This document shows, in pieces, positions 31,698 to 46,551 of a stretch of 64,000 nt of DNA (position 1 is its first letter; the number at the start of each line of letters is the position of its first letter). The stretch covers positions 6,696,001-6,760,000 of the forward strand of contig CP108997.1 of the NCBI GenBank assembly GCA_036226585.1, written 5' to 3'. The translations under genes and the position numbers were made by a program. This stretch comes from Streptomyces sp. NBC_00708 (lineage in GTDB: Bacteria > Actinomycetota > Actinomycetes > Streptomycetales > Streptomycetaceae). The notes under the pieces were generated by a model. That model saw only the letters and a program-made list of their open reading frames with translations, was not told the origin of the DNA and searched no databases.

Positions 31698-31759
31698 TGG
31701 GAGCGCTCCCATGCATTCGTTGGTAGGGGACTGTAGGGGATTCGCCGTGTCCCTGACAA
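31698..31759 (-). promoter_or_regulatory. LPMO promoter with CebR/CelR-type operator
   Basis: On the minus strand: TTGTCA (31759-31754), 18 bp, TACAGT (31735-31730), then the perfect 14-bp palindrome TGGGAGCGCTCCCA (31711-31698), 18 bp after the -10. This is the published CebR/CelR box. In 31539-31912 nothing else is supportable. Confidence 0.85.
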
Positions 31760-32062: not shown

Positions 32063-33085
32063 TCAGCCCGACCCGCGCACCATCAGTCGCGTCCGCAGGA
32101 TCACGTGGTGCCAGGCCACCTTCGGCCGGCTCATCTCCTCCAGCAGCAGCCGCACCATGGCCCGGCCGATCTCCTCCATCGGCTGGCGGACCGTCGTCAG
32201 TGGCGGCTCGGTCTGCTCGGCGAGCTCGAAGTCGTCGAAGCCGACCACCGCGACGTCGTCGGGCACCCGGCGCCCCGCCGCGTGCAGCGCGGCCAGCGCG
32301 CCGGCGGCCATGCTGTCCGAAGCGGCGAACACGGCGTCGACCTCCGGGTGTTGCTCGATCAGACCCGTCATCGCGCGCCGGCCGCTGGCCTCGGTGAAGT
32401 CGCCCTGCACGACCAGGGACGGCAGCTCCGCGCATCCCGCCTCGCGCAGCGCCTCCCGGTATCCGCGCAGCCGGCACTGGGCGACGTACATCTCGGGCGG
32501 TCCGGTGATGGCGGCGATGTTCTTCCGGCCGCCGCGCACCAGGTGGCCCACCGCGTCCCGCGCGCCGCCAACGTTGTCGGCGTCCACGTAGGTGACCCGC
32601 TCGTCACCGGAGCGCCGGCCCAGCAGCACCGTGGGAACCCCGGCGTCCGCGAGCATGTCCGGCAGTCGGTCCTCGGCGCTCACCGACATGAGCAGCACCC
32701 CGTCGACCCGGCCCCCGCGTACGTACTCCAGGAGCCGCTGCCGTTCGCTGTCGGTCCGGACCAGGGTGAGGAGCAGTTGCACCCCCTGCTCGTCCAGGGC
32801 GTCCCCGACCGCGCTGACGATCTCCGAGAAGAACGGCTCGCCGAACAGCCGCCAGTCGGTCTTCGTCATCACCAGGGCGACGGCGCCCGCCCGTTGCCCG
32901 GCCAGGGAGCGTGCGGCCAGGTTGGGCACGTAACCCAGTTCGTCGATGGCGCGCTGTACGGCGCGGCGGGTGGACTCCCTGACGCCCGAGGCATTGTTGA
33001 TCACCCGGGAGACCGTGCCCCGTCCCACCCCGGCGAGCGCGGCGACCTCTTCCAGCGTCGGCGTGCCGGAACTCCTGTTCAGCAT
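32063..33085 (-). CDS. CelR/CebR-like LacI-family regulator of cellulose genes
   Basis: LacI repressor of 340 residues. The headpiece reads TLEEVAALAGVGRGTVSRVI; the recognition helix GVGRGTVSRVIN is the same as in Thermobifida CelR, which binds TGGGAGCGCTCCCA and is released by cellobiose. The periplasmic-binding-like core follows (VALVMTKTDWRLFGEPFFSE; VDGVLLMSVSAEDRLP; VFAASDSMAAGALAAL). That exact operator occurs three times around it: at the LPMO, and twice between this gene and the divergent cellulase. TAGGAT (minus strand, 33113-33108) is a likely -10. Whether this is the organism's main CebR or a second copy cannot be told from here. Confidence 0.88.
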   Translation of the reverse strand: MLNRSSGTPTLEEVAALAGVGRGTVSRVINNASGVRESTRRAVQRAIDELGYVPNLAARSLAGQRAGAVALVMTKTDWRLFGEPFFSEIVSAVGDALDEQGVQLLLTLVRTDSERQRLLEYVRGGRVDGVLLMSVSAEDRLPDMLADAGVPTVLLGRRSGDERVTYVDADNVGGARDAVGHLVRGGRKNIAAITGPPEMYVAQCRLRGYREALREAGCAELPSLVVQGDFTEASGRRAMTGLIEQHPEVDAVFAASDSMAAGALAALHAAGRRVPDDVAVVGFDDFELAEQTEPPLTTVRQPMEEIGRAMVRLLLEEMSRPKVAWHHVILRTRLMVRGSG

Positions 33086-33176
33086 CTCCCACCCCCAAGA
33101 GCCCCCGATCCTACGGCCAGGAGGGTGAACGCCCGAGTGAACGGGGCGATCGGCGGCCGATATCGGCTCCCGCGTC

Positions 33177-33190
33177 TGGGAGCGCTCCCA
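33177..33190. promoter_or_regulatory. CebR/CelR box 1 (cellulase/celR intergenic)
   Basis: Perfect TGGGAGCGCTCCCA palindrome, 92 bp upstream of the regulator start and just before a possible TTGTGC -35 (33198) for the cellulase. Confidence 0.85.
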
Positions 33191-33268
33191 AGTTTATTTG
33201 TGCATGACAGCGTCGGATCCCTATGCGCGGGGGCTCGGCGGCGTGTACGGTCTCGGCCCGATGGGTTC

Positions 33269-33282
33269 TGGGAGCGCTCCCA
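33269..33282 (+). promoter_or_regulatory. CebR/CelR box 2 (cellulase leader)
   Basis: Perfect TGGGAGCGCTCCCA, centred 92 bp from box 1 and 45 bp before the cellulase start. TACGGT (33246-33251) lies 17 bp upstream and may be the -10, matching the spacing at the LPMO promoter. Confidence 0.85.
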
Positions 33283-33327
33283 TTCGAAAGTTCCTCAGTT
33301 GTTCCCCTTCGAACGAGGAGAAATGCT

Positions 33328-34716
33328 GTGAAACGCTTCTTGGCTCTGCTGGCGACCGGCGCGACGGTCATGGGCCTGACGGTCCTGGCCAGTCCTCCGG
33401 CGGCGGCCGCCACCGGCTGCAAGGTGGACTACACCGTCGCCAGTCAGTGGGAGGGCGGCTTCCAGGGCGGCGTGAAGGTCACCAATCTCGGTGATCCCGT
33501 GAGCGGCTGGCAGCTCAAGTTCACCCTGCCGGATTCCGGTCAGAAGGTCGTCCAGGGCTGGAACGCGACCTGGTCGCAGTCCGGCTCCACGGTGACCGCC
33601 GCCGGCGTCGACTGGAACAGCAGCCTGGCCACCGGCGGCTCGGCCGACCTGGGCTTCGTCGGCTCGTTCACGGGCTCCAACCCGCAGCCCACGGGCTTCA
33701 CGCTCAACGGTGTCGCGTGCACCGGGTCCGTCGGCGGCGGGGGAGACGACGACGGTCCGCCGCCCACCACGGGTGACGGCACCCCGGTCGGGACCAACGG
33801 CCAGCTCCACGTGTGCGGTACGAACCTGTGCAACCAGTACAACCGACCCATCCAGCTGCGCGGCATGAGCACGCACGGCCTCCAGTGGTTCAGTCAGTGC
33901 TACAACAACGCGTCCCTGGACGCGCTGGCGAACGACTGGAAGGCGGACCTGCTGCGCACCGCCATGTACGTCCAGGAGGACGGCTACGAGACCGACCCGG
34001 CGGGCTTCACCAGCAAGGTCAACGGCCTTGTCGACATGGCCGAGGCCCGTGGCATGTACGCCCTGATCGACTTCCACACCCTCACGCCGGGCGACCCCAA
34101 CTACAACCTGGAGCGCGCCAAGACGTTCTTCGCGTCCGTCGCGGCCCGCAACGCCTCGAAGAAGAACGTCATCTACGAGATCGCCAACGAGCCCAACGGT
34201 GTGAGCTGGGCGGGCATCAAGAGCTACGCAGAGCAGGTCATCCCGGTGATCCGGGCCGCCGACCCGGACGCGGTCGTCATCGTCGGCACCCGTGGCTGGT
34301 CCTCCCTGGGCGTCTCGGACGGGTCCAGCGAGAGCGAGGTCGTCAACAGCCCCGTCAACGCCACGAACATCATGTACGCGTTCCACTTCTACGCCGCGAG
34401 CCACAAGGACAACTACCGCGCGACGGTGAGCCGGGCCGCGTCACAACTCCCGCTGTTCGTGACGGAGTTCGGCACGGTGAGCGCCACCGGCGGCGGCGCG
34501 CTGGACCGGGCGAGCACGACCGCCTGGCTGGACCTGCTCGACCAGCTGAAGATCAGCTACGCGAACTGGACCTACTCCGACGCCAACGAGAGCAGTGCCG
34601 CGTTCAAGCCCGGCACCTGTGACGGCGGCGACTACAGGAGCAGCGGTGTGCTGACCGAGTCGGGCGCACTGCTCAAGTCCCGGATCAGCACCCCGGACAA
34701 CTTCCCCACCAGCTGA
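33328..34716 (+). CDS. Secreted endoglucanase, CBM2 + GH5
   Basis: Cuts internal beta-1,4-glucan bonds in cellulose. The 462 residues have a signal peptide (1-28, ending AAAA), an N-terminal CBM2 (YTVASQWEGGFQGGVKVTNL; W-rich binding face), an acidic/Pro linker (GGGGDDDGPPPTTGDG), and a GH5 barrel. The barrel has QLRGMSTHGLQWF, acid/base Glu in IYEIANEPNG, and nucleophile Glu in PLFVTEFGT. The GTG at 33328 has GAGGAG at 7 nt. It is divergent from the celR-like gene, with two CebR boxes between, and probably acts with the LPMO. Confidence 0.95.
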   Translation: MKRFLALLATGATVMGLTVLASPPAAAATGCKVDYTVASQWEGGFQGGVKVTNLGDPVSGWQLKFTLPDSGQKVVQGWNATWSQSGSTVTAAGVDWNSSLATGGSADLGFVGSFTGSNPQPTGFTLNGVACTGSVGGGGDDDGPPPTTGDGTPVGTNGQLHVCGTNLCNQYNRPIQLRGMSTHGLQWFSQCYNNASLDALANDWKADLLRTAMYVQEDGYETDPAGFTSKVNGLVDMAEARGMYALIDFHTLTPGDPNYNLERAKTFFASVAARNASKKNVIYEIANEPNGVSWAGIKSYAEQVIPVIRAADPDAVVIVGTRGWSSLGVSDGSSESEVVNSPVNATNIMYAFHFYAASHKDNYRATVSRAASQLPLFVTEFGTVSATGGGALDRASTTAWLDLLDQLKISYANWTYSDANESSAAFKPGTCDGGDYRSSGVLTESGALLKSRISTPDNFPTS

Positions 34717-34726
34717 TCCGCGAAAT

Positions 34727-34756
34727 GCGGGGGCCCCGGTGCGCCGGGGCCCCCGC
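34727..34756 (+). terminator. Terminator after cellulase
   Basis: Perfect 13-bp stem (arm GCGGGGGCCCCGG, 34727-34739 with 34744-34756), 4-nt loop, 10 bp past the stop. Confidence 0.8.
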
Positions 34757-34781
34757 AGTCATGCGCGGACACCGCCGAACC

Positions 34782-34840
34782 TTGACACTCCGTCGACAGC
34801 GGCGAGACACTGGGGCCGTCGCGGGAGAGCGCTCTCCCGC
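34782..34840 (+). promoter_or_regulatory. Orphan LacI-controlled promoter
   Basis: TTGACA (34782-34787), 17 bp, GACACT (34805-34810), then a perfect 22-bp palindrome (34819-34840) with core GGGAGAGCGCTCTCCC. The arrangement and even flanking bases (TTGACAC..CTGGG..CGGGAGAGCGCTCTCC) resemble the GH3 promoter at 46493-46551. No glycosidase gene follows; the next feature is the long hairpin at 34887. Confidence 0.65.
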
Positions 34841-34940
34841 GCGATTTCCGCCACCGTGCCGACCCACTCCCCGCTGTCGGCGCGGTACAGAAGCCCGTGG
34901 TGGCCACGGCTCTCCGTGGCCACCACGGGCTTCTGTGTAT
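34817..34940 (+). ncRNA. Candidate LacI-controlled small RNA
   Basis: Hypothetical transcript bounded by the orphan promoter (expected start near 34817) and the 23-bp terminator hairpin. It would contain the operator palindrome (itself a hairpin), a 6-bp GCCGAC/GTCGGC stem (34858-34881) and the terminator. No open reading frame with a ribosome binding site is seen inside. The alternative is a scar left by loss of a coding gene between promoter and terminator. Confidence 0.3.
34887..34936 (+). terminator. Exceptionally strong hairpin (23-bp stem)
   Basis: Perfect 23-bp stem, arms 34887-34909 and 34914-34936 (arm begins ACAGAAGCCCGTGGTGGC), 4-nt loop CTCT, followed by the AT-rich GTATATTC. It would end any transcript from the orphan promoter at about 120-125 nt, or act as an attenuator ahead of the tetR gene. 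Confidence 0.75.
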
Positions 34941-34993
34941 ATTCGGCAAAGGCCGAGCTGAGGGCCCTGGGACACGCACAGGCGGGGGTGGGG

Positions 34994-35575
34994 ATGGTTC
35001 GCGCGGGGCTGACGACCGAACGGGTCGTGGCGGCTGCGGCCGATCTGGCGGACTCGGCCGGCTTCGACAAGGTCACCATCTCCGCACTGGCCCGGGGCTT
35101 CGGCGTGAAGGACGCGAGCCTCTACTCCCACGTCAGGAACCTGGGCGACCTGCGCACCCGTGTCGCGCTGCTCGCCGCCGAGGAGTTCATCGACCGGATC
35201 GAGGCGGCGGTGGCCGGCCGGGCCGCGAAGGACGCCCTGGTCGCGTTCGCCGGTGCCTACCGCGCCTTCGCGCTGGAGTGCCCGGGCCGGTACGCGGCCA
35301 CGCAGTACCCCGTCGACCCCGCGATCGTCGCCGAGGCGCCCGCGTACCACCGCACCCTGCGGACCACCTCGGCGATGCTGCGCGCGTACGGTCTGACCGA
35401 ACCCGACCTCACCGACGCGGTACGGCTGCTGCGCAGCACCTTCCACGGCTTCACCGCCCTGGAGGGGGACGGCGGCTTCGAGGCCCCGCGGCCCGTGCAG
35501 GCCTCGTGGGAACGCGCGGTCGACGCCCTGCACTACCTGCTGTCGAACTGGTCGCGGGCGACCGGGGGAGCGTAG
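34994..35575 (+). CDS. TetR-family regulator (TetR_C_33/WHG type)
   Basis: Repressor of 193 residues. HTH region: RAGLTTERVVAAAADLADSA, then TISALARGFGVKDASLYSHV, the pattern of the YSHV-type TetR group. The C-terminal ligand domain has AYRAFALECPGRYAATQYPV and LLRSTFHGFTALEGDGGFE. The ATG at 34994 matches the usual family start, in a G-rich stretch that could serve as ribosome binding site; a GTG 6 nt earlier is possible. No neighbour is an obvious target. The long hairpin lies 58 bp upstream. Confidence 0.85.
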   Translation: MVRAGLTTERVVAAAADLADSAGFDKVTISALARGFGVKDASLYSHVRNLGDLRTRVALLAAEEFIDRIEAAVAGRAAKDALVAFAGAYRAFALECPGRYAATQYPVDPAIVAEAPAYHRTLRTTSAMLRAYGLTEPDLTDAVRLLRSTFHGFTALEGDGGFEAPRPVQASWERAVDALHYLLSNWSRATGGA

Positions 35576-35594
35576 GCGCGCTCCACCGGAGCCC

Positions 35595-36428
35595 TCACCC
35601 GAGCGTGCGCAGCACCTCGGTGATCGTCGCCCGGTACGTGCGCAGCGCCTCCAGGCCGGCGGTGTAGCGGGCGCGGTGCTGTGTGATGTCGATGGTCTGT
35701 TTCCGCGCCCGTGCGGTGTGCCAGATCTCGGCCGTGTGATGGCGGCGTTTGCAGATGACGTCCGCGACGGCGGTGTCACGCTCCCGCCGTGTGTGCCTCG
35801 TATTGCCGTCGCCGCCCCGGTGCCAGGCGGTGTCCGTGTACGCCGCCACCGGGTCCGCATAGCGTGTGAACCCCCGGTCGGCCATACAGCCGGACCAGGC
35901 GTCCCAGGCCGCGCGGAGATCCGGGTCGCGCTTGAGCGCCTTGTCGGTCTCGATGGCCCGTGTGCCCGCGTAGAGCCAGTCCCGCCGGAGGTCGATGCCG
36001 CGCATCAGCCGCTGATCCGACCGGGACAGGCAGGCGGGGTAGTCCGCGTACTCGGCATCGGTCATCCGGCGGCCCGTCGGCCGGTGTGCCCGCGACGTCG
36101 CAGGATCCCAGCCGTAGCCCCAACGGCGGGCGGAGGCGAGGTCCAGGGCGCCGTAGTCGGTCGAGACCGCCGTGAGGGTGATGGGGTCACTGGGGCTACG
36201 GGGGTCGAGCGGGAAATCCGCGTGGCCGCGCTCCGCCATGCACTGGCGCACCAGCAACGCCGTTGCCTGTTGCGACCGTTGGTAGTCCTGCGCCGTGTAG
36301 GTGTAGCGGTCGGCCGGCAGGGGGCCGAGATCGGACGCCGTACGGATGACGTCCGGGCGCCCCGGACCGGACACACATATCGCCGTCAGCACCGCCACGC
36401 AGCCCAGCCGCCACCCCCGCCTCGTCAT
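35595..36428 (-). CDS. Exported protein of unknown function
   Basis: Protein of 277 residues with a probable signal peptide or N-terminal anchor (WRLGCVAVLTAICVSGPG). The mature part is Arg/Asp/Tyr-rich and has four well-spaced cysteines (LLVRQCMAERG; YADYPACLSR; AWSGCMADRGF; DVICKRRHH), in repeated Cys-Met-x-x-x-Gly/Arg contexts, suggesting two disulphides. Similar secreted proteins are common in Streptomyces, but I do not recognise a named family. It faces the tetR gene with 19 bp between stops. Confidence 0.6.
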   Translation of the reverse strand: MTRRGWRLGCVAVLTAICVSGPGRPDVIRTASDLGPLPADRYTYTAQDYQRSQQATALLVRQCMAERGHADFPLDPRSPSDPITLTAVSTDYGALDLASARRWGYGWDPATSRAHRPTGRRMTDAEYADYPACLSRSDQRLMRGIDLRRDWLYAGTRAIETDKALKRDPDLRAAWDAWSGCMADRGFTRYADPVAAYTDTAWHRGGDGNTRHTRRERDTAVADVICKRRHHTAEIWHTARARKQTIDITQHRARYTAGLEALRTYRATITEVLRTLG

Positions 36429-36587: not shown

Positions 36588-37946
36588 TCAGGCGGCCTTG
36601 CGGGAGCGGGGAGTCGATGCCTCGCGGATCAGCTCCGCGTAGCGCCGGCCGCTGCTCTTGACCGTACGGCGCTGGGTCGCGTAGTCGACGTGGACCAGGC
36701 CGAACCGCTTGTCGTAGCCGTACGCCCACTCGAAGTTGTCCAGGAGCGACCAGGCGAAGTAGCCGGCCAGCGGCGCGCCCTTGCGGACGGCGCGTGCACA
36801 GGCCGCGAGGTGTTCCTCCAGGTACTGGGTGCGCTCCGGGTCGTGCACCGAACCGTCGGCCAGGACGACATCCTGGTAGGCCGAGCCGTTCTCGGTGACG
36901 TAGAGGCGCTCGACGCCGTACTCCTCGGTCAGGCGCAGGAGCAACTGCTCCAGGCCCTGCGCGTGCACCTCCCAGTCCATGTGGGTGTGCCGGGACCCGG
37001 GCAGGTAGACCTGCTTGGCCTGCGGGACCGGGCCGGACGGGTCGGCGGTGACGACCTGGCGGAAGTAGTAGTTGACGCCCAGCCAGTCCAGCGGCGCGGA
37101 GATCAGCTCCATGTCACCTTCCTGGACCGGGAGTTCGACTCCGTACAGGTCCACCATGTCCTGCGGGTAGCCGCGCCCCAGGATCGGGTCGAGCCACCAG
37201 CGGTTGGTGTGGCCGTCGCCGCGCACCGCCGCCGCCCGGTCCGCCTCGCGGTCGGTGGCCGGTTCCACCGGGCTGAGGTTGTTGACGATGCCGACCCGGG
37301 CGTCGGGGGAGATGCTCCGGATCGCCCGGACCGCGAGGCCGTGGCCCAGGTGCAGGTGGTAGGAGGCCCGGACGGCGGCGGTCAGGTCGGTGAGACCCGG
37401 TGCCATCGTGCCCTCCAGATGGCCGATCCACGCCGAGCACAGGGGCTCGTTGAGGGTCGCCCAGTCCTTGACACGGTCCCCGAGCCGTTCCACGACGACC
37501 GAGGTGTACGCGGCGAAGTGCTCCGCGGTCTCCCGTACGGTCCAGCCGCCCCGGTCCTGGAGCGCCTGCGGAAGGTCCCAGTGGTAGAGCGTGGCGAACG
37601 GGGTGATCCCGGCCTCCAGCAGCCCGTCCACCAGCCGGTCGTAGAAGTCGAGGCCGGCCGCGTTGACCGGTCCGTCGCCGCCGGGCACGATCCGCGGCCA
37701 GGCGAGCGAGAAGCGGTACGCGTTCGCCCCGACCTCCTTGATCAGGCCGATGTCCTCCGGCACCCGGTGGTAGTGGTCGCAGGCCACGTCCCCGGTGTCG
37801 CCGCCGGCCACCTTGCCCGGGGTGTGCGAGAAGGTGTCCCAGATGGAGGGGGCGCGGCCGTCCTCGGCCACGGCTCCCTCGATCTGGTACGCGGCGGTGG
37901 CGACGCCCCAGGTGAAGCCGGCCGGCAGGGCGCTGAGGTCGTTCAC
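36588..37946 (-). CDS. GH1 beta-glucosidase
   Basis: Cytoplasmic enzyme of 452 residues that splits cello- or other beta-gluco-oligosaccharides. GH1 signatures: [20 protein letters not shown] at the N-terminus, acid/base Glu in [13 protein letters not shown], and nucleophile Glu in [32 protein letters not shown] near the end binds glucose. The GTG at 37946 is chosen with GGAAAGGAAG upstream. It is the last gene of an operon with two permeases and a binding protein, so it probably hydrolyses the imported sugar. Confidence 0.93.
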
Positions 37947-42777: not shown

Positions 42778-43875
42778 CTACGCCGAGTCCCGCACCACCA
42801 GCGACGGCTCGAAGATCACGGACGTCGCCGCGCCCTCGGGCCTGGCCAGCCGCTCGATCAGCAGCCGGGCCATCTCGGCGGCCATCGCCTCCACCGGCTG
42901 GCGGACGGTGGTCAGCGGCGGACGGCAGGCCAGGGCCGCGCTGCTGTCGTCGAAGCCGATCACCGCGACGTCCTCCGGCACCCGCTTGCCGCGTTCCCGC
43001 AGGACGTGGCAGGCGCCCGTGGCCATCAGGTCGTTGGCTGCGAACACCCCGTCCAGATCGGGGTGTTCGGCCAGCAGCCGCTCCATCGCGGTCTCGCCGC
43101 TCTCCTGCGTGAACCGCCCCTCGGCGATCGCGATGTACGGATGCCCGTTGCTTGCCATCGTGTCCCGGAAGCCGGCCAGCCGCTCCTGCACCGCGGGCAC
43201 GTCGAGCGGGCCGGTGATGGTCGCGATACGGCGGCACCCCCGGGCCAGCAGATGTTCGGCGGCCAGCCGCGCGCCGTCCTGGTGGGCGACGTCGACATAG
43301 CTGATCCGGGCCGCGCGGGCGGGCCGCGCGTAGAGCACGGCCGGCAGCCCGGCGTCCGTCAGCATGCCCGGCAGCGGGTCCTCCGCGTGCGTCGATACGA
43401 CCAGCGCACCGTCCGCGCTGCCCTGGCGCAGGAACGCCACCACATCCTCGCGGGCCCGTGATGTCTCGGCGAACATCAGGACGGGGTGCATCCCACGCGG
43501 CCGCAGGTAGTTGACCACGCCCGTCACCACCCGGCCGAAGAACGGGTCCGCGAAGACCTGCCCGGTGAACGACGCCCCCTCGCTCCCGTCCATGTCCTCC
43601 GGGGACGGGCCCTCCTCCGGCTCCGTCTCCGGCTCGACACCGGCGCCGGAGACCACCAGCGCGATGGCGTCGGTGCGCCGGGTCACCAGCGAGCGCGCCG
43701 CACGGTTGGGCGCGTAGCCGGTGGAGGCGACCGCCCGGCGCACGGCCTCCTGGATCACCGGGTCGACATTCCGTACGCCGTTGATCACCCGGGAGACGGT
43801 GGCGCGGGAAACACCGGCCGCCCTCGCCACGTCCTCAAGGGTGGGTGTTCCGGCCGGTCGCAGATCATCCGTCAT
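42778..43875 (-). CDS. LacI-family regulator of the GH3 gene
   Basis: Repressor of 365 residues. The headpiece TLEDVARAAGVSRATVSRVI has recognition helix GVSRATVSRVIN, differing from the CelR-like protein (VGRG), and thus another operator is expected: GGAGAGCGCTCTCC. An acidic insertion of about 28 residues (VEPETEPEEGPSPEDMDGSE) interrupts the start of the ligand domain near residue 78, before FADPFFGRVV. The gene follows GH3 by 8 bp, but an internal promoter (minus strand TATAAA, 43888-43883, ending 7 nt before the ATG) suggests a separate leaderless transcript. Confidence 0.9.
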   Translation of the reverse strand: MTDDLRPAGTPTLEDVARAAGVSRATVSRVINGVRNVDPVIQEAVRRAVASTGYAPNRAARSLVTRRTDAIALVVSGAGVEPETEPEEGPSPEDMDGSEGASFTGQVFADPFFGRVVTGVVNYLRPRGMHPVLMFAETSRAREDVVAFLRQGSADGALVVSTHAEDPLPGMLTDAGLPAVLYARPARAARISYVDVAHQDGARLAAEHLLARGCRRIATITGPLDVPAVQERLAGFRDTMASNGHPYIAIAEGRFTQESGETAMERLLAEHPDLDGVFAANDLMATGACHVLRERGKRVPEDVAVIGFDDSSAALACRPPLTTVRQPVEAMAAEMARLLIERLARPEGAATSVIFEPSLVVRDSA

Positions 43876-43882
43876 GAGCGCA

Positions 43883-43911
43883 TTTATAGCATCAGCGGAG
43901 AGCGCTCTCCA
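43883..43911 (-). promoter_or_regulatory. Internal lacI promoter and operator inside the GH3 3' end
   Basis: On the minus strand TGGAGA (43911-43906), 17 bp, TATAAA (43888-43883); the expected start coincides with the lacI ATG at 43875. The palindrome GGAGAGCGCTCTCC (43897-43910) occupies the spacer and -35. The bases also encode GH3 residues GERSP, and the GH3 stop TAA lies within the -10. Confidence 0.65.
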
Positions 43912-46492: not shown

Positions 46493-46551
46493 GGAGAGCG
46501 CTCTCCCGGGCTGTCGCGCCCAGGGTCGCCGGTCGCCGCCGACCGTGTCAA
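46493..46551 (-). promoter_or_regulatory. GH3 promoter with LacI operator
   Basis: On the minus strand TTGACA (46551-46546), 18 bp, GACCCT (46527-46522), then GGAGAGCGCTCTCC (46506-46493), a perfect 14-bp palindrome 15 bp after the -10. The same palindrome recurs inside the GH3 3' end and at 34823-34836. Confidence 0.75.

Follow-up and report, generated by a model that had tools for sequence, protein, structure and literature searches.

An orphan LacI-type promoter beside tetR in Streptomyces: a probable small RNA retained from the 3'UTR of a deleted glycoside hydrolase operon

INTRODUCTION

Some small RNAs (sRNAs) arise from decayed genes, and the origin of stand-alone bacterial small RNAs is rarely visible. 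The stretch of Streptomyces sp. NBC_00708 DNA analyzed here (64,000 nucleotides, hereafter the window) raises this question at a single locus, where a promoter with a LacI-type operator is followed by a large hairpin next to a tetR gene. What does a promoter with no gene of its own produce, and is the unit a leftover of lost genes, an RNA gene in its own right, or a leader of tetR? Comparison with related genomes indicates that the unit descends from a glycoside hydrolase operon and probably persists as a small RNA gene.

RESULTS

Parts and predicted folding of the orphan unit

The orphan promoter begins with the -35 hexamer TTGACA (34782..34787, + strand). At a 17-nt spacing, comparison points to AGACAC (34805..34810, +) as a weak -10 sequence, the counterpart of which reads CAACAC or TAACAC in relatives. 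A sigma-70 scan, whose rule requires A and T at fixed positions of the -10, returned no promoter-like site; therefore, the assignment of the orphan promoter rests on comparison with relatives. The LacI-type operator, an exact GGAGAGCGCTCTCC (34824..34837, +), would lie within the transcript, which is predicted to span approximately 120 nt if it starts near position 34817. Further downstream, a stem-loop overlooked by the earlier note (stem-loop 1; 34854..34885, +) combines a 10-bp stem with a 12-nt C-rich loop, CCACUCCCCGCU (34864-34875). It precedes the terminator hairpin (34887..34936, +), confirmed here as 23 perfect base pairs with a CTCT loop, the pairs of which are retained via double changes. 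As had been described, no reading frame separates operator and hairpin, in the sense that no conserved frame was found there, and no trace of lost reading frames is visible in the window between operator and stem.

The RNA from 34808 to 34945, for which the minimum-energy and centroid structures were considered, folds with -93.8 kcal/mol (z = -9.9), and none of 200 shuffles was as good. A search of positions 33000-36000 of the window against Rfam 15 gave no match at the gathering score, the best being mir-4776 with 33 bits versus 97. A role as a DNA site was also weighed for a 9-bp inverted repeat formed by the promoter spacer and the loop and was rejected, as the spacer half of the repeat, compared by eye, is not retained in relatives.

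The orphan operator belongs to the GH3 and LacI set

The window holds three of the six exact GGAGAGCGCTCTCC copies in the genome. Besides the orphan copy, one lies at 43897..43910, within the last part of the GH3 frame and just upstream of a gene for a LacI-family regulator (42778..43875, - strand; flanking exact operators), and the third lies at 46493..46506, in the promoter upstream of GH3. The exact-match scan thus places one operator at the orphan unit, GH3 and LacI genes, and the promoters of GH3 and of the orphan unit share one layout, which bears out the GH3-like promoter and operator described in the earlier note. The LacI-family regulator is the presumed binder of this operator. With up to three mismatches allowed, matches were not enriched in the window (15 versus 10.5 expected), and therefore only exact matches carry weight.

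The orphan operator is not of the CebR set, TGGGAGCGCTCCCA, found near the cellulase. Three exact CebR-type sites occur at 31698, 33177 and 33269, at the LPMO and GH5/LacI genes. Because the longest GH5 frame includes the site at 33269, the actual start of GH5 probably lies further downstream.

Orphan units in related genomes

A protein search with tetR in 246 genomes of the genus gave six relatives at 81-90% identity. Operator, stem-loop and hairpin are retained in four of the six (G179, G195, G140 and G094); G171 has the terminator alone left, and G099 has no part of the unit and keeps the tetR promoter element. Named genomes were also scanned for a pattern in which the operator and loop letters are fixed, which returned nine orphan stretches. 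The unit is present in record NZ_KB892013.1 (L059) of Streptomyces sp. ATexAB-D23, a strain that was among those used for RNA-seq in PMC4898821. The orphan alignment comprises 11 distinct sequences: five were obtained by the pattern only (A1277, CB01249, 2131.1, col6 and A0958), and six are independent of the pattern, five of them having come from the search with tetR and G337 from a covariance model built with the loop. A first nucleotide search of 61 genomes, including our own, had matched 11 but missed all ten relatives that carry the complete unit; its match in G008 sits in a frame resembling a sugar-binding transport protein.

In all nine named orphan loci, tetR stands beside the unit and a GH1 match is present. 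In the window, the corresponding GH1 gene of an ABC-sugar operon (36588..37946, -) serves as the convergent anchor of synteny. The GH1 match of L064 is a 79-residue piece only. Indeed, the ABC-GH1 operon itself is reduced or lost in L064, L117 (G171), L189 (G379) and L190 (G096), where, among the last three, a 43-residue permease piece was left or GH1 was missing. Between tetR and GH1, the window also contains a 277-amino-acid reading frame (35595-36428) with no Pfam match, which is present in two of the nine named loci (L060 and L063). The proposed link of the unit to the cellulase turned out to be weak: a GH5 gene does lie upstream in L057, L058 and L060, as well as in G195 and G140, but this amounts to only three of the nine named loci (L063 being too short to tell), and the operator is not that of the CebR set.

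The same RNA element ends an intact DUF1996-glycoside hydrolase operon

A covariance search of 392 genomes of the genus, with strict filters that lose weak matches, matched 32 at E <= 0.01, of which 22 carry both stem-loop and terminator. These comprise six orphan units with tetR, the orphan unit of G190 without an adjacent tetR, 13 elements located behind a glycoside hydrolase (GH) gene, and two further cases, G256 and G371. Nine matches that look like terminator-type hairpins or chance were set aside, seven after inspection and two (G187 and G002) solely on the basis of which part of the model they matched; the remaining one, in G171, is the terminator alone.

In the 13 genomes (of 392), a gene for a secreted glycoside hydrolase ends in a stop codon 15-62 nt ahead of stem-loop and terminator, so that the orphan sequence is homologous to an mRNA 3' end. 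Two of the 13 hydrolases were scanned for domains and have a Glyco_hydro_2_C-like TIM barrel and an F5/8 type C domain. A DUF1996-type gene precedes the hydrolase in all 13, and both operon genes have GGAGAGCGCTCTCC-type operators. Comparison of strains for a gene between operator and hairpin, as suggested in the earlier note, thus revealed a pair of them. Among 16 fetched loci, the DUF1996 promoter shows the layout of the orphan promoter (TTGACA, AACACT or ACACT, operator) in 15; the remaining one is G190, where a DUF1996 gene is absent from this place. Identity of the window promoter to the DUF1996 promoters is modest (0.60-0.70, with shuffles reaching up to 0.70), and that of the G179 promoter is higher (0.66-0.81). 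Ten of the 13 intact operons face, in convergent orientation, the GH1 gene of the ABC operon that the window unit also faces, at a distance of 0.6 to 7 kb, and G256 and G371 share this arrangement relative to the GH1/ABC operon. Of the other three, G379 and G096 have further genes of the ABC/ROK cluster and no GH1, and G139 is cut off by the end of its contig.

By eye, an inverted repeat of the form CTCCCTCATGGG...CCCATGAGGGAG borders the second operator, located between the two genes, in the intact operons L098, L100-L102, L104, L106, L107 and L110. The repeat enters the left half of the operator, as if the DUF1996 terminator and the GH operator shared sequence. The window's genome has another DUF1996-GH pair at 2.835 Mb (L111; G000:C1:2835366-2838470), which is diverged, has its own exact operators, lacks the C-loop element and is followed directly by the next frame.

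Fossils of the deletion

Intermediate states were observed in living species. Between operator and element, G190 carries a degenerate copy of the C-terminal GH codons, stop and 3'UTR leader. When these 47 nt (operator to stem, stem excluded) were aligned with 12 intact genomes, 10 of the 12 scores were reached in at most 0.5% of shuffles, and the alignments with L075 (8% of shuffles) and L092 (42%) gave no support. In G371, only the last GH codons are left, in frame, after the second operator. G256 (L103/L120) lost the hydrolase separately and retains DUF1996, and its element appears to be decaying, with broken pairs.

In a tree of the rpoB region of 27 genomes, which omits the five pattern-only strains, the six tetR orphans, G190 and G171 form one clade with a bootstrap of 100, and G256 and G371 fall outside it. 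Since the orphans and G171 form a single clade, one ancestral loss suffices. Overall, synteny, the intact relatives and the gene-end fossil of G190 identify the orphan unit as the remnant of a deleted DUF1996-GH operon, both reading frames of which were lost in the clade of the window. The idea that a glycosidase gene had been excised therefore holds for the origin of the unit and falls short in number, two genes (DUF1996 and GH) having gone.

Conservation of loop and stems

The operator is present in all 11 orphan sequences, with 13 of its 14 positions invariant, even in G094 and G337, in which other sequence stands in place of the -35 hexamer and the spacer and a promoter is not clearly recognizable. 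The loop CCACUCCCCGCU is identical in the 11 sequences (12 of 12 sites invariant), versus 0 of 15 sites in the spacer adjoining it. Among the six pattern-independent sequences, the loop is still invariant and 1 of 15 spacer sites is. For comparison, 4-fold sites of four neighboring genes are 0.66-0.82 identical between our genome and G094. Across the 27 element sequences (26 distinct) from orphan and post-GH contexts, the CCCCGC of the loop is invariant in 27 of 27, and the loop of the G190 orphan differs outside CCCCGC. A conserved, single-stranded candidate seed, as expected of a 3'UTR-type RNA, is therefore present.

Pairing was evaluated with shuffles that ignore the kinship of the sequences. 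In the 11 orphan sequences, six pairs show double changes, in 12 cells versus 3.7 in shuffles, and the number of further pair types is not above that in shuffles. Among the 27 element sequences, double changes affect 9 of 26 pairs (47 cells versus 16.6), and 95.4% of cells are paired, versus 30-51% with one strand slid; in stem 1, pair 9-24 does not form in 14 of 26 sequences. The reduction of G171 to a terminator and the broken pairs of G256 imply that the RNA is dispensable in places.

tetR as a candidate target of the C-rich loop

The gene downstream of the unit encodes a TetR-family regulator (TetR_N and TetR_C_33; 34994..35575, +), and its ATG lies 57 nt from the hairpin end on the same strand. 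Its ribosome-binding site, GGCGGGGGTGGGG, is partly complementary to the C-rich loop. Directly 3' of the hairpin, TATATT (34938..34943, +) is the putative tetR -10. A TGTGTATATT element and CCTAG repeats lie downstream of the hairpin and also occur in L032, which lacks the orphan unit. At tetR loci (window 34938-34990; L032, L034 and L035), a TATATT-type element and CCTAG repeats are often retained upstream of the gene. They are likely the promoter and autoregulatory operator of tetR itself.

Among 35 starts examined in the window (39 frames called), the ribosome-binding site of tetR pairs best with the loop (-26.3 kcal/mol). The mean energy with the window loop is -25.3 kcal/mol for 11 tetR leaders adjacent to a unit versus -11.2 for 25 without a unit, kinship being ignored in this comparison. 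When the leaders were shuffled, the loop-tetR energy was reached in fractions of 0.0185 (our genome), 0.0025 (G179) and 0.0105 (G195), and the pairing was not significant in G140 (0.13), G094 (0.15) and G337 (0.08). The corresponding fractions for shuffled loops are 0.08, 0.008, 0.04, 0.18, 0.11 and 0.11 in the same order, so that values below 0.02 were obtained in three of six genomes with leader shuffles and in one of six with loop shuffles.

Elsewhere, perfect loop complements before ATG numbered 41 in six genomes versus 37 for the reversed control, which is no enrichment, and 16 loci with the element and no adjacent tetR yielded no strong target for the loop. The gene directly after the element ranks 1-3 among the few starts examined in G311, G227, G090, G139 and G371, though with no more than -15.4 to -20.1 kcal/mol. 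A perfect 10-base loop complement is found at the ribosome-binding region of what we take to be atpD in six of six genomes (L164 and five relatives); it overlaps the end of the preceding frame, presumably atpG, and atpD was not adopted as a target. Taken together, these data are suggestive of tetR as a candidate target, the best found here. G190 retains the element without tetR beside it, and we do not think it likely that tetR is the sole target.

DISCUSSION

The comparison suggests that the loss of an operon and the presence of a small RNA are complementary, not competing, options, and that the 3'UTR of the lost operon was probably retained as a LacI-controlled RNA of about 120 nt. The main rival to this reading is that promoter, operator and terminator are simple leftovers, with the terminator kept because it insulates tetR and a C-rich loop without a role. 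The clear origin by deletion, the terminator retained alone in G171 and the decaying copy of G256 agree with such a scar. It leaves unexplained, however, why an unpaired loop of no use to a terminator is wholly invariant next to a spacer with no invariant site, why the operator is nearly so, and why the pairing of stem 1 is kept through changes, between genomes whose neighboring genes have diverged at 4-fold sites. Because of the loop, the compensatory stem changes and the persistence of the unit through the clade, we consider it unlikely that the unit is merely a scar, and the sugar-controlled small RNA envisaged in the earlier note gains support from conservation as the present state of the locus.

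The remaining readings are far less probable. Sugar-controlled transcription might enter tetR unless halted at the hairpin, which would make the unit a tetR leader or attenuator; the shared strand and short distance would permit this, and on a read-through transcript the loop could pair in cis with the tetR ribosome-binding site. Against attenuation, which the earlier note had offered as an option, tetR has, past the hairpin, a TGTGTATATT element of its own together with CCTAG repeats, also where the unit is lacking (L032), and the same RNA stands behind GH genes in 13 genomes and without tetR in G190; we hold attenuation to be quite improbable. An equally slim chance is given to the operator acting at the DNA level, where it would attract the GH3 operon's LacI repressor as a decoy or take part in looping, and transcription would be incidental. 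The presence of the operator in every orphan sequence, even behind changed promoters (G094 and G337), would fit, but the conservation of the loop and the compensatory changes of the stem would not be accounted for. Least probable by far is a short peptide starting at a GTG at 34856 (VPTHSPLSAR...). A similar frame opens in several relatives, but it is shifted in G140, it has no start codon in 2131.1, and no clear Shine-Dalgarno sequence lies upstream; with the frame broken in one and startless in the other, a conserved small reading frame in the unit was ruled out.

The retained-RNA reading would entail the following course of events. The starting point was a LacI-controlled operon of two genes, DUF1996 and a secreted TIM-barrel/F5-F8C glycoside hydrolase, convergent to the ABC-GH1 operon. 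As the comparison shows, the ancestor of the clade then lost both reading frames by deletion, which fused promoter and operator to the 3'UTR of the operon, and of this 3'UTR the stem-loop with its C-rich loop and the terminator were both retained. When an inducing sugar frees the operator of its LacI repressor, putatively the regulator encoded at 42778-43875, a stand-alone RNA of about 120 nt may be transcribed, and its C-rich loop may pair with G-rich ribosome-binding sites in the manner of the icaR 3'UTR. A more tentative proposal, possible though doubtful at present, is that an sRNA gene was born by deletion of reading frames as a free LacI-controlled riboregulator, its RNA having had a function at the mRNA end beforehand, and that one lineage captured the adjacent tetR by adaptation of its ribosome-binding site.

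Intact operon, partly deleted forms and forms without reading frames coexist in living species at one syntenic place. With all stages extant at one locus, the birth of an RNA gene from the tail of an mRNA becomes readable and testable. If true, it would add an RNA arm to the control of polysaccharide use in Streptomyces, beside the known LacI/CebR repressors.

A literature search, conducted mostly outside subscription papers, found no description of the unit or of an sRNA derived from an operon by loss of its reading frames. The operator has already been published as a CelR-like palindrome (PMC3377646); compared with the CelR/CebR-type LacI operators described (PMC3377646, PMC4898821), the one studied here precedes a unit without a reading frame. 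Many short intergenic and UTR-associated RNAs, to which the predicted RNA is alike, have been described in a comparison of S. coelicolor, S. avermitilis and S. venezuelae (Moody et al. 2013, PMC3765725), the main text of which does not contain the terms LacI and glycos-. The unit also resembles the 3'UTR-derived bacterial sRNAs reviewed in PMC9438474, in that a structured RNA behind an operon uses the mRNA terminator. Whereas those RNAs are processed or have an internal promoter, the promoter here would be that of the operon, joined to the RNA through deletion of the reading frames. The closest parallel for the loop is the icaR 3'UTR of Staphylococcus aureus, a UCCCCUG motif of which pairs with the Shine-Dalgarno region and blocks translation (PMC3868564). 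Both have a C-rich 3'UTR motif able to pair with a G-rich Shine-Dalgarno sequence; however, the icaR motif has a proven pairing with its own mRNA, whereas here the reading frames are gone in one clade and the target is a candidate.
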